NCBI GenBank assembly: GCA_001917905.1
Contig: MNEX01000307.1
Location: 10,592 to 52,970 of the forward strand
DNA length: 42,379 nt
Direction: 5' to 3'
From: Acidobacteria bacterium 13_1_40CM_65_14
Lineage (GTDB): Bacteria > Acidobacteriota > Vicinamibacteria > Vicinamibacterales > CAVVIG01
Shown: one piece after another, positions 879-41,687 of the stretch
Position numbering within the stretch: position 1 is the first letter of the stretch
How the letters are laid out: every line of letters starts with the position of its first letter
Made by a program: the position numbers and the translations under genes
Notes under the pieces: model-generated
Database searches by the model: none
Told to the model about the DNA's origin: nothing
What the model saw: only the letters and a program-made list of their open reading frames with translations

Positions 879-989
879 CTAGCGGACCGTTTCAACTGGA
901 GGAGTACTGGTCACAACAAGCCTTCGACCGCAATTTTCGGGCCGCGACATCGGAGCGGCCCGGTAGTAAATCCGAGCAGACACGCCTAG
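879..989 (+). mobile_element. Element F copy 1: ~111-nt MITE-like element flanked by CTAG
   Basis: CTAG-CGGACCGTTTCAACTGGAGGAGTACTGG...CGGGCCGC-GACATCGGA-GCGGCCCG-GTAGTAAATCCGAGCAGACACGC-CTAG; matches the reverse complement of 30088-30199 end to end (about 88% by eye). Confidence 0.75.
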
Positions 990-8724: not shown

Positions 8725-8872
8725 GCGTAGCCCTTTAGAGCGCGTTGCAGAATTAAGCTCTCCACCACGGAGGACGCGGAGGAAAATCCCGTTTTGAACA
8801 GGATTGAACCTCCTATCCTCCGTGTCCCCCGTGGTGGCGAGGTCATTTTGAAATGCACTCTTAGGGCTGCGT
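8725..8872. repeat. Family A hairpin copy 1
   Basis: Outer arms gcgtagccctttagag / gcactcttagggctgcgt; inner arms ctccaccacggaggacgcggagga / tcctccgtgtcccccgtggtggcgag. Core 8738-8850 matches 20203-20316 with 4 visible differences. Confidence 0.88.
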
Positions 8873-11393: not shown

Positions 11394-11538
11394 GCGCAGC
11401 CCTTCAGAGGATGTGAAGAAATCACGTCAACGCAAAGGCCGCTAAGACCGCAAAGGAAGAATCTTTCGAAAAGATGCTTTGCGCGCTTTGCGATCTTTGC
11501 GTTCAACGTGATTCTTTCACAAGCTCTTCAGGGCTGCA
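11394..11538. repeat. Family B hairpin copy 1 (128-nt core 11402-11529)
   Basis: gcgcagccc-ttcagaggatgtgaagaaatcacgtcaacgcaaaggccgctaagaccgcaaaggaagaatctttcgaaaagatgctttgcgcgctttgcgatctttgcgttcaacgtgattctttcacaagctcttc-agggctgc; reverse complement of 30314-30441 with 2 visible mismatches. Confidence 0.93.
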
Positions 11539-20186: not shown

Positions 20187-20331
20187 GGCAGCCTTAACTT
20201 AAGAGCGCGTTGCAGAATTAAGCTCTCCACCACGGAGGACGCGGAGGAAAAATCTCGTTTTGAACAGGTTTGAACCTCCTATCCTCCGTGTCCCCCGTGG
20301 TGGCGAGGTAATTTTGGCACGCACCCTAGGC
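20187..20331. repeat. Family A hairpin copy 2
   Basis: gggcagccttaacttaagagcgcgttgcagaattaagctctccaccacggaggacgcggagg...cctcctatcctccgtgtcccccgtggtggcgagg...cgcaccctagg; core nearly identical to A1, same orientation. Confidence 0.88.
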
Positions 20332-29753: not shown

Positions 29754-29828
29754 ATTGGGTAATCGGGTAATTTGGTAATCGGGTAATTCCGATTACCAGA
29801 TTTCCCGATTACTCGATTACCAAATTCT
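29754..29828. repeat. Family E hairpin (8-nt period GGTAATCG)
   Basis: attgggtaatcgggtaatttggtaatcgggtaattccgattaccagatttcccgattactcgattaccaaattc; starts at the end of stop codon 29751-29753. Confidence 0.88.
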
Positions 29829-29982
29829 GCATTACGCGCCGGGCTTCGTCCGCGATCGTGCGCACGACGTCGCCGGCGCTCGGCAGATCCCGAATGACGC
29901 CGACGCTCTGTCCCGCATACAGCGGGTTGCCCGATTGAATGATCGGGTGGCGGATCTTCAAGAGTTCGCTGAGCGATGACAT
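29809..29982 (-). pseudogene. Internally deleted nitronate monooxygenase-like relic (57 aa)
   Basis: MSSLSELLKIRHPIIQ (N-terminal type) joined to GNPLYAGQSVGVIRDLPSAGDVVRTIADEARRVMQ (C-terminal type); stop codon supplied by repeat E. Confidence 0.65.
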
Positions 29983-30019
29983 ACTCCGTCATGATATTCA
30001 AAAGCGCGTTCAATGGCCG

Positions 30020-30292
30020 GAAGTAGCGCAGCCCTTTAGGTTAGAGTGCGGTTCAAAACTACCTCGCCGCCACGGGGGACACGGAGGCTAGTGGCGTGTC
30101 TCTTCCGAATTACTACCGGGCCGCTCCGCTGTCGCGGCCCGAAATCGCGGTCGAAGGCTGGTTGTGACTCGTACTCCTTCAGCTGATACGGTCCGCTAGG
30201 AGGCTCAAACCTGTTCAAAACGGGATTCTTCCTCCGCGTCCCCTGTGTCCTCCGTGGTGGAGATCTTGATTCTTCAACGCGCTTAGGGCTGC
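30020..30292. repeat. Family A hairpin copy 4, interrupted by element F
   Basis: gtagcgcagccctttagg...acctcgccgccacgggggacacggagg-[F]-gaggctcaaacctgttcaaaacgggattcttcctccgcgtcccctgtgtcctccgtggtggag...cgcgcttagggctgc. Confidence 0.85.
30088..30199 (-). mobile_element. Element F copy 2, inserted in repeat A4 with flanking CTAG
   Basis: GGAGG-CTAG-tggcgtgtctcttccgaattactaccgggccgctccgctgtcgcggcccg...gatacggtccg-CTAG-GAGG. Confidence 0.78.
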
Positions 30293-30313
30293 CCGGCGGC
30301 CGTCGCCAGGCCT

Positions 30314-30441
30314 GAGGAGCTTGTGAAAGAATCACGTTGAACGCAAAGATCACAAAGCGCGCAAAGCATCTTTTCGAAAGATTCTTCCTTTGCGGTCTTA
30401 GCGGCCTTTGCGTTGACGTGATTTCTTCACATCCTCTGAAG
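30314..30441. repeat. Family B hairpin copy 2 (128 nt)
   Basis: Reverse complement of 11402-11529 with 2 visible differences. Confidence 0.93.
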
Positions 30442-30495
30442 GCCTGCGCTACACGTGGCCGCCGCACGCCGCGTACGGCTTCGGAAAGGAACCGT

Positions 30496-30891
30496 GTGTC
30501 ACACCGCCCCGTGCACGCCAACAATCTCCCCAAGCCAGTCGGACCGTACTCGCCCGGCATGGGGTTCGAGCGGTTGATCTTCGTCTCGGGTCAGGCCGCG
30601 ATGGATGCGGCGACCGGCAAACTCGCAGGCGACGACATCGAGCGGCAGACCGAGCAGTGCCTCGAGAACGTCCGGGCAATTCTCGAGGCGGCGGGATCGA
30701 GTCTGCAGCACGTGCTGCGCTGCGGCGTGTTTCTCGTCGACATGCGCGAGTTCCAGAGGATGAACGCGGTGTACGCGCGAATGTTCGGCGACCACCGCCC
30801 GGCGCGCACGACCGTGCAGGTCGCCGGTCTGCCGGGCGACGGCCTCGTCGTCGAGATCGACGCGGTTGCGTATATCCCGTCGAGCGACTAG
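30496..30891 (+). CDS. RidA family protein
   Basis: NLPKPVGPYSPGMGFERLIFVSGQAAMDAATGKLAGDDIERQTEQCLENVRAILEAAGSSLQHVLRCGVFLVDMREFQRMNAVYARMFGDHRPARTTVQVAGLPGDGLVVEIDAVAY; GTG start with upstream ggaaagga. Confidence 0.93.
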   Translation: MSHRPVHANNLPKPVGPYSPGMGFERLIFVSGQAAMDAATGKLAGDDIERQTEQCLENVRAILEAAGSSLQHVLRCGVFLVDMREFQRMNAVYARMFGDHRPARTTVQVAGLPGDGLVVEIDAVAYIPSSD

Positions 30892-39263: not shown

Positions 39264-41687
39264 CTAGATACCTCCCCCAGGAACGACAGGTGGCGGCGGT
39301 GGAGGCGGCAGCGCTGGCGGTGCGACCGGCACTGGCGGCGGCAGATCGGCCGGCGCTGCGACAGGCGGTGCCGGCAACGGATCAATCGGTGCCGGCAGCG
39401 GATCGACTGGTAGCGCCGGCGGCGGATCAAGCGGCAATGCCGGCGGTGGCTCGACCGGCGATGGCGGCGGCTCGACGGACGGCGCGGGCGGTGGCACGAC
39501 CGGCGGCCGAGGGCCGGCGCCGAGCGATGACAGCACGGTGAACATCTGCTCGTCGCTGAGCTTGCTGAACATCGACGTCCAGCTCAGAGGAGTGACGTTG
39601 CCGGTAGCCGACGTCCCCCACACGATGCCGGCGAGCGGGTCATTGACGCCCCACACGATGTTGCCCAGGTCGTCGACGCCCCACACGATGTTCTCGTCGC
39701 CCGCAGTGCCCCAGACGATGTTCTCGTCCACAGCGGCGGTGCCCCAGACGATGTTCTCGTCGTCAGCGGCGGTGCCCCACATGATGTTCTCGTCGGCAAC
39801 GGCGGTGCCCCAGACGATGTTCGCGCCATGCGCGGTGCCCCAGACGATGTTCTGTTCATCGACGGTGCCCCAGACGATGTTGTCGCAATCATCGCCGCCG
39901 CAGTTGACGCCCCACACGATGTTTTCATCGCTGCCGGCGGCGCCCGTGCCCCAGACGATGTTCGAGCAGTCGGCATCCGAGCAGTTGACGCCCCACACGA
40001 TGTTGCTGCTGGAGTCGTCGACGCCCCAGACGATGTTGCTGCAGTCGTCGGTCGAGCATTGAACGCCCCAGACGATGTTCTGATTGTCGTCGGTCTTCGC
40101 AACACCCCAGTCGGTGCCGACGCTGTACGCGTTCGCCGACAGCTTCAGATAGCCGCCCTTGAGCTGGTGGTTTCCCCAGATGATGCTCTTGCTCCACATC
40201 GCCTGCGACGGCATCGGCTGCCCAGGCTGCGCGGTCGCGTAGAACTTCGCGAGTCGCACGGCGCCGACCGTATTGAGGAAGCCCGCGCCCTCGGTGAGCG
40301 GGTCATAGCCCGGATACACCTGCGCGGAGTACTGAAGGATCGCCTTCACCGCGTTGGGCGTCAGCGCCGGATTGGCCTGCAGCATCAACGCAACCGTGCC
40401 CGCCACGACCGGCGCCGCCATGCTCGTGCCGCTCAGCGTCAGGGACGCCTGGAACGGCGTCGAGACGAGGCCGTTCGCCAGGAACGGCGCCTTCGTCAAG
40501 TGGAACGTGCCCCACGGATCCGACAGGGACATCGTCCCCCTGCCGGGCGCGACGAGGTCAGGCTTCGCGCCCCAGTCCTTGTACGACGGACCGCGCGAGC
40601 TGAAGGACGCCATCTTGTCGTCGGCGCGATCCGCCGTGCCCTCGTGGCTCGACGCGCCGACGGTCAGCACCCACGGCGCGTTGCCCGGCGCGACGATGCC
40701 GCCGTACTGAATCTGACCCTGTGCGTTCTTGCCGGCGTTGCCCGCGGCACCCACGACGACCACGCCTGCGTCGACGACGCGCTTGGCGGCGAGCGTCAGC
40801 GGGTCGGTCCAGTACGACTCGGTCACGCCGGCGCCGACCGACATGTTGACGACGCGGATGTTGTACTGCCTGTGATTCGCGAGCACCCAGTCGAGCGCCT
40901 GGATGATGTTGCTGATCGAGCCCTGGCCGTTCGCGTCCAGCACTTTCAGAGAGATGAGATCCGCGTCAGGCGCCACACCCGCTTGACGGCTGTTCGTATC
41001 GTAGCCGTTGCCCGCGATGATGCCGGCGACGTGCGTGCCGTGACCCTCATCGTCGTACGGCGCGATTTGGCCGTTCACGAAGTCGACGAACGCCTTCACC
41101 CGCTGATTGCCGTACGGATACAGCGTCGAGGTGCGGTTCGTCAGATCGTCGTGCCACGGCGCGATGCCGGAGTCGATGATCGCGATGCCGACGCCGGTGC
41201 CCGTGAGGCCGAGCGCGCGGTTCACGGCGAGTCCGCCCGTCGTCAGCGCCGTCGTGTAGTTCGCTTGCGCGAGCGGACGGTCGTAGCGGATGTCGAAAAC
41301 GTCAGGATGCTGAGACAGCCGCTTGATCAACCCGTTGGGCAGGCTGAGCGCCTGACCGTTGATGATCCCGAGCCGCTTGTAGGAGTCCGCGTACTTCTTG
41401 AACTCGGTCGGAAGCTGCGCACCCGATTTCAGCGTGACGATGACCTTGCTCTTCGCCAGTGCCGAGTGGTGGTCGGCACGATAAGTCAGTTCCTTATCGA
41501 GCTTGCGATGGTCTCTAGCCTCGGCGTTCGGACGACCGGCGCGGCCCCTGGTCGCACCTCGGTCGTGCGAGCCCGCAGCCAGGGCGTTGGAGGCCAAGCC
41601 GAGCACGAGCACCGCCACGGCGGCCAACGTGCGCTTTGGTCCCCAGACCGCCTTGCGTCTGGTCGTCCGTTCAATCGATGGGATCAT
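39264..41687 (-). CDS. S8 family serine protease (subtilisin-like) with C-terminal NIVWG repeats and Pro-rich tail
   Basis: Catalytic GIAIIDSGIAPWHDDL (Asp), DEGHGTHVAGIIAG (His), LSGTSMAAPVVAGTVALMLQ (Ser); 13 NI[V/M]WG repeats; tail PPPPPPPVVPGGGI. Confidence 0.95.
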   Translation of the reverse strand: MIPSIERTTRRKAVWGPKRTLAAVAVLVLGLASNALAAGSHDRGATRGRAGRPNAEARDHRKLDKELTYRADHHSALAKSKVIVTLKSGAQLPTEFKKYADSYKRLGIINGQALSLPNGLIKRLSQHPDVFDIRYDRPLAQANYTTALTTGGLAVNRALGLTGTGVGIAIIDSGIAPWHDDLTNRTSTLYPYGNQRVKAFVDFVNGQIAPYDDEGHGTHVAGIIAGNGYDTNSRQAGVAPDADLISLKVLDANGQGSISNIIQALDWVLANHRQYNIRVVNMSVGAGVTESYWTDPLTLAAKRVVDAGVVVVGAAGNAGKNAQGQIQYGGIVAPGNAPWVLTVGASSHEGTADRADDKMASFSSRGPSYKDWGAKPDLVAPGRGTMSLSDPWGTFHLTKAPFLANGLVSTPFQASLTLSGTSMAAPVVAGTVALMLQANPALTPNAVKAILQYSAQVYPGYDPLTEGAGFLNTVGAVRLAKFYATAQPGQPMPSQAMWSKSIIWGNHQLKGGYLKLSANAYSVGTDWGVAKTDDNQNIVWGVQCSTDDCSNIVWGVDDSSSNIVWGVNCSDADCSNIVWGTGAAGSDENIVWGVNCGGDDCDNIVWGTVDEQNIVWGTAHGANIVWGTAVADENIMWGTAADDENIVWGTAAVDENIVWGTAGDENIVWGVDDLGNIVWGVNDPLAGIVWGTSATGNVTPLSWTSMFSKLSDEQMFTVLSSLGAGPRPPVVPPPAPSVEPPPSPVEPPPALPLDPPPALPVDPLPAPIDPLPAPPVAAPADLPPPVPVAPPALPPPPPPPVVPGGGI
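39615..40082 (-). repeat. Protein-coding repeat tract (NIVWG units of 10-14 aa)
   Basis: Repeated CC(C)CA(G/C)ACGATGTT at variable spacing in multiples of 3, encoding NIVWG. Confidence 0.95.

Follow-up and report, generated by a model that had tools for sequence, protein, structure and literature searches.

A candidate MITE-type family duplicating TA and often found at the stop-start junctions of acidobacterial operons

The 112 bases at positions 30088-30199 of the window (the 42,379-nucleotide stretch of contig MNEX01000307.1, from Acidobacteria bacterium 13_1_40CM_65_14, that was analysed here) hold one copy of a short repeat, F, which is, as judged from its sequence, a previously undescribed MITE-type family of this acidobacterial genome. 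At least 72 distinct full copies with common ends and unrelated flanks are present in the 1.47 Mb of genome sequence examined, out of a fragmented assembly of 6.33 Mb in 342 contigs that is 87% complete. Very often, F exactly separates a stop codon from the start codon of the following gene, with neither codon broken, including in cell-division and ribosome operons. As a whole, we consider it probable that F is a non-autonomous MITE that is mobilised in trans, duplicates only the TA of a YTAR target, and is tolerated at operon junctions.

F inside the A4 hairpin and across the genome

Within the window, F copy 2 interrupts A4, a member of the A family of hairpin repeats. The element proper (GTGG...CCGC, 30091-30196, + strand) is 106 bp long and has no extra loop unit. 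On its left, CTAG (30088-30091, + strand) consists of the target C, the duplicated TA (30089-30090), and the first base of the element, G; on its right, CTAG (30196-30199, + strand) consists of the last base of the element, C, the duplicated TA (30197-30198), and the target G. The central hairpin is formed by a conserved 5' arm, CGGGCCGC (30117-30124, + strand), and a 3' arm, GCGGCCCG (30134-30141, + strand), that is the most conserved stretch of the family. A4 itself, to which no strand is assigned, is split into a left part (30042-30087) and a right part (30200-30286), the outer boundaries of both being approximate. Positions 30080-30199 read ...GACACGGAGG-CTAG-TGGCGTG...GGTCCG-CTAG-GAGGCTCAAA..., and the reverse complements of the paralogs A1 (8733-8861, + strand) and A2 (20198-20330, + strand) read ...GACACGGAGG-ATAG-GAGGTTCAA..., which confirms the native ATAG that the initial annotation had placed at the insertion point.

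The A family has at least 40 copies in the genome. About 30 A paralogs of the genome can be aligned over the full length of the reconstructed empty A4 site with few or no gaps and identities of up to 93.6%, and at the F point these uninterrupted paralogs read ACGGAGG-ATAG-GAGG or ACGGAGG-ACAG-GAGG. They bear out the initial description of A4 as interrupted by F and resuming exactly after it. The further claim that F was mobile and is younger than A4 also holds, because F sits inside A4, is multi-copy in unrelated flanks, and is missing from the A paralogs. Among the 50 matches listed in a genome BLAST search with F, nearly all end where F ends, without running into A. The proposal that F belongs to A as a variant native loop, considered from the outset as the reading that would undo this history, has its sole point of support in the position of F at 30088-30199; it is ruled out by A paralogs that lack F and by F copies elsewhere that lack A flanks, and we give it practically no chance. 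In G001, a genome of the same genus, ~34 bp stand in place of the whole block 29756-30509, which comprises A4, F, and an adjacent repeat. A4 and F appear to be gains of the source lineage, with loss in G001 as the alternative.

Other repeats surround these elements. The A copies (8733-8861, 20198-20330, and 30042-30286) appear to have TA-containing tetramers at both edges and inverted AGAGYGCGTT ends, which suggests that A may be another family of TA-targeted MITEs. A further dispersed repeat family is represented in the window by an inverted pair (11394-11536 and 30307-30449) of 97% identity; elsewhere it is itself hit by an F copy at L041/L160 (L160:3379-3533), and about 12 of its paralogs present the empty site. 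An in-phase ~33-bp tandem repeat (CCCCAGACGATGTTC...) occupies 39694-40093 within a long ORF. A literature search on the sequences of A-type and AACGCAAAG/CACGAAG-type repeats returned nothing relevant.

The F consensus is CTAG TGGCGTGTCTC...CGGGCCGCTCCG-(loop units)-TTGTCGCGGCCCGAAAATCGCGGTCGAAGGCTNGTTGTGACTAGTACT...CAGCTGATACGGTCCRCTAG, and its copies form a size ladder of 113, ~155, ~195, and ~235 bp within a full range of 57-253 bp over the 72 copies. The steps correspond to 0-3 extra 42/39-bp hairpin units (e.g. CTCGCACCCCACCGCGCAGGCGTGCGCGGTGGGGACCCCGCG) within the loop of the central hairpin, and the 57-bp copy, at L201, has lost its interior. The terminal inverted repeats, GTGG...CCAC, are imperfect; the consensus ends, GTGGMGTGTC and, reversed, GTGGACCGTATC, agree with the initial annotation, which saw a weak inversion across the outer ~12 nt. 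Sibling elements at L121, L168, L191, and L202 combine the ends of F with another interior hairpin made of AACGCAAAG-type repeats, and their ends are ~28-bp imperfect inverted repeats that are clearer than those of F. At L142:14863-15114, a different element is nested in the internal CTAG of an F copy, with CTAG on either side. F is thus shorter than ~300 bp, non-coding, and multi-copy, with common ends, terminal inverted repeats, and a duplication seen through empty sites, the features by which a MITE is recognised. We propose that it would be a non-autonomous MITE of ~109 bp with optional loop units.

Target site and mobilisation

F is best described as GTGG...CCRC set within a YTAR target, mostly CTAG, of which TA alone would be duplicated. 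TA is intact on both sides in 51 of the 72 copies, 36 of which are CTAG/CTAG. The other 15 are informative: TTAG on the left with CTAG on the right accounts for six, CTAG/CTAA for three, and TTAG/CTAA for two, and the left and right 4-mers are equal in a single copy. The 4-bp CTAG duplication originally proposed gives way here to a duplication of TA only. Across the 72 copies, the outer bases are variable (left C in 53 and T in 15; right G in 63 and A in 9), whereas the inner bases are near-fixed (left G in 67, right C in 68), with changes at 28 of 144 outer versus 9 of 144 inner positions (Fisher p=0.0013). This combination argues that only TA is duplicated and that the G and C belong to F.

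Empty sites can be compared directly at several loci. At the junction of a STAS-domain gene, the relative G010 reads GGGGC-TTAG-CGATG, and the source genome reads GGGGC-TTAG-[F]-CTAG-GATG. Joining the flanks gives TTAATG at frdC-frdD and TTAAATG at L184, where the filled site is TTAG-[F]-CTAA-ATG, so that a TTAA target yields TTAG/CTAA. Two paralogous empty sites are available, in the A family and in the L041 repeat family (native TTAG or TCAG in the latter); in both, the outermost base on the left is C in the filled copy, in place of a native A or T. Either the occupied paralog was therefore already CTAG by prior substitution, or F chose CTAG paralogs strongly. It is plausible that the occupied A and L041 paralogs had turned CTAG before insertion, CTAG being clearly the preferred target. 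At ftsL-ftsI and ftsE-ftsX, the pre-insertion sequence is not directly seen because in relatives the stop and start codons overlap and contain no YTAR. CTAG is very rare in this genome: ~1.1 Mb of stretches longer than 6 kb contain 276 sites, counted as 552 hits over two strands, and a sizeable share of the 276 sites are F ends.

Two alternatives concern how F moves. If F duplicated 4 bp (CTAG), as IS5- or IS481-type chemistry would fit, departures would be the product of later mutation; the 36 of 72 copies with CTAG on both sides accord with this, as do the two paralogous insertions (A4 and L041), both CTAG/CTAG. Mutation should strike the left and right C alike, yet the first base of the tetramer is T on the left in 15 copies and on the right in 3, and its fourth base is A on the right in 9 and on the left in 3. 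With one equal pair among the 15 informative copies and with TTAG/CTAG and TTAG/CTAA copies that have empty sites, among them the TTAA target of L184, a 4-bp CTAG duplication is contradicted as a general rule, and we regard it as quite unlikely. F could also be a single-strand (HUH/Y1) element moved by a RAYT-like Y1 enzyme, in which case there would be no true duplication, and its own end would supply the second TA. The genome has exactly one Y1_Tnp gene (L205, G000:C103:122-460; RAYT-like, with an HYH motif), as in REP/RAYT systems, and both the asymmetric target and the hairpin-rich element would suit such an enzyme. Set against this, no F ends lie in the 1.96 kb around the gene, on a contig that starts 58 bp upstream of the ORF; the inverted-repeat ends and the symmetric variation of the outer bases fit a double-strand duplication; and the GTAG-tagged hairpin that defines REP was not seen. 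We judge mobilisation of this kind unlikely.

The reading that we prefer is duplication of TA by a transposase acting in trans. TA duplication and the imperfect inverted repeats of ~28 bp together point towards an IS630/Tc1-like DDE enzyme, and a TA-targeting transposase of this class is, we infer, the most likely to mobilise F. Searches of the assembly for IS630 (PF13358), IS701 (PF13546), and rve (PF00665) gave no match, which is weak evidence in a fragmented assembly that is 87% complete, and the two DDE_Tnp_1 genes present have no F ends nearby. No autonomous partner with F ends was found among these four DDE families and Y1 in the draft, from which a helper could be missing because of its fragmentation and incompleteness.

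Operon junctions, orientation, and relatives

Genes at the ends of F were called with a model of codon usage for which 317 long ORFs of the source genome served as the training set. In 24 of 70 copies, a co-directional gene ends in the TAG at the left end of F, against 8 of 72 in the opposite orientation (binomial p=0.007), and in 23 of 72 a co-directional gene begins no more than 6 nt from the right end, against 6 in the opposite orientation (binomial p=0.002). Stop and start occur together in 14 of the 72 copies; at F-free CTAG sites, they do so in 3 of 221. Counting ATG triplets alone, 31 of 72 copies have one no more than 6 nt from the right end, and 10 of 72 have one as close to the left end. 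About half of the copies are located elsewhere than at stop/start junctions. Pfam confirms junctions between FtsL and the PBP dimer domain (ftsI), an ABC ATPase and FtsX (ftsE-ftsX), S16 and KhpA (rpsP-khpA), an oligopeptide permease pair, and MerR and DnaJ; others, by inspection of their translations, look like rbsB-rbsA, pstS-pstC, frdC-frdD, and rsfS. F copy 1 of the window (879-989, - strand; no TG after the CTAG at its left end) illustrates the arrangement. An ABC-ATPase gene (986-2026, - strand) takes its TAG stop (988-986) from the left end of this copy, and the ATG (878) of a same-strand ABC_tran_2 gene stands directly next to the right end. Both frames survive because TA and the G of F make TAG, and the right TA restores the downstream sequence.

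The same logic extends to the family. F would enter TA within YTAR, mostly CTAG, duplicating TA only; an insertion in a TAA or TAG stop leaves TAG, since F places a G directly behind the left TA, and the right TA copy would leave a following ATG intact. With CTAG rare in a GC-rich genome and stop and start preserved, survival is therefore expected mostly at junctions and inside repeats such as A4. The flanks are themselves asymmetric. At the first position of the right flank, A is found in 49% and C in 8%, and at the first position outward on the left, A is found in 12% and C in 29%; the A-rich, C-poor right flank is also present in the 41 copies that have no nearby ATG. As the skew persists without ATG, the asymmetry belongs to the target, and target choice accounts for part of the orientation bias. 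Selection for tolerated insertions could explain the rest of the excess at gene starts, and the strong orientation of F along operons would then combine an asymmetric target with such selection.

In relatives, F is rare. It is absent by consensus BLAST from G001, and the same search found it in 2 of 39 sampled relatives, one (G024) with one full and one partial copy and the other (G025) with a weak partial match. When 84,980 species genomes were scanned by pattern, the F core turned up in two Acidobacteria MAGs, in both of which the left end again forms the TAG stop of a co-directional ORF. The core is absent from viral contigs, and 72,556 plasmids gave no F match; on these negatives, carriage by plasmids or viruses was rejected. 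Eleven F junctions are readable in at least one relative, and F is present in none of them. Four of the 11 hold another insert in G001: AACGCAAAG hairpins at ftsE-ftsX and after rbsB, a GCAGCCCGTGGTGAAA hairpin at dppB-dppC, and another hairpin at the ABC junction, a site that in G014 and G024 holds a GGTTCAGGGTTC-type hairpin. In G024, ftsE-ftsX is uninterrupted. Unrelated elements therefore reach the same junctions, as at the four in G001. The foreign hairpins at F junctions are of the AACGCAAAG, GCAGCCCGTGGTGAAA, CTTCGTG, and GGTTCAGGGTTC types and lie at L252, L254, L256, and L301 in G001, L296 in G014, and L299 in G024.

An RNA role of F is possible, and in one account F would be kept as an intercistronic RNA element, with the stop and start at the feet of one stem so that coupling is preserved or tuned, and with its mobility mostly past. 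The junction and orientation bias speaks for this proposal, as do a core that keeps 94-100% conservation in copies that have diverged elsewhere, a consensus fold of -24.6 kcal/mol on the + strand versus -16.5 kcal/mol on the - strand, and an excess of G-U over A-C on the + strand (96 versus 16 cells). On the other side, the covariation term of the consensus fold is -0.18, almost nil; per-copy folding energies show no preference for the + strand (39 of 72, p=0.24); and the folding z-score of a single copy is -1.3. On this ground we do not claim strand-specific RNA selection, the consensus fold and G-U pairs favouring the + strand and the per-copy energies not. About half of the copies lie off such junctions, no resolved relative needs F there, and the shared ancestry of the copies alone could explain the conserved core. 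We hold this account to be doubtful. F was also considered as a known Rfam RNA and set aside, as no covariance model matched it: the window gave no match at the gathering threshold, and nine F loci gave chance hits only, outside F.

Comparison with known repeats and implications

ERIC, the enterobacterial repetitive intergenic consensus (also IRU), is 127 bp long, and the F sequence is not known to be related to it. Unlike ERIC, F is found in Acidobacteria, has a YTAR target, and abuts stop and start codons. Chunjie of Geobacter uraniireducens is reportedly a MITE in an operon whose structure it leaves undisturbed (cited in PMC10969869); a single operon case is cited, whereas F does so repeatedly and with exact preservation of stop and start. 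ERIC and F share a length of ~100-200 bp, an intergenic location, short imperfect terminal inverted repeats, a TA-ended duplication, and a long stem-loop (PMC2229807). ERIC is a TA-flanked intergenic MITE found within operons, where it is co-transcribed, with an effect that varies with orientation (PMC2229807). For F, co-transcription is inferred, as is any effect on neighbouring genes.

RUP, the repeat unit of pneumococcus (107 bp), resembles F in size, TA target, and high copy number and has a candidate helper, IS630-Spn1 (PMC2229807), whereas the assembly with F, 87% complete, has no IS630 match. RUP is over-represented between convergent genes (PMC3049150), in contrast to F, which lies along operons. 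Correia/NEMIS elements (107 and 155 bp) have TA at their ends and come, like F, in size classes, of which there are two owing to an internal ~50-bp segment; RNase III has been proposed to cleave their RNA (PMC2229807). Their terminal inverted repeats and interior are unrelated to F as far as examined, and the ladder of F is built from 0-3 copies of 42/39-bp units. BOX of pneumococcus (boxA-boxB(n)-boxC) is modular, with a variable number of central units, like F (PMC3049150), but F has inverted-repeat ends in a TA target, and the sequences are unrelated. A passage of PMC3733652 describes REP as a 20-40-bp palindrome with a GTAG or CGTC tag at one end; F, in contrast, is at least 113 bp with inverted ends, and the feet of its hairpin carry neither tag. 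We would file F as a new family among the ERIC, RUP, Correia/NEMIS, and BOX kinds, with its own sequence, host group, YTAR target, and junction niche.

A bolder proposal, which we entertain tentatively and think improbable, is that the ends of F and its asymmetric target are shaped for frame-safe entry into operons, with TA and the G of F giving a TAG stop every time, that the RNA stem would set the TAG stop near the next AUG, and that the junctions are landing sites shared by several unrelated hairpin families of this bacterial group. If this were true, mobile RNA-structured elements that alter gene coupling would have a recognised niche in operon junctions. Small bacterial repeats are usually found where they are least harmful, e.g. 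between convergent genes. F, by contrast, is present at high copy number within core-gene operons, exactly at the stop-start junction where coupled translation would operate, and mostly in one direction. It offers dozens of natural filled and empty junction pairs for testing how much separation and RNA structure is tolerated between coupled genes, and its junctions also bear on how mobile DNA avoids harm to its host.
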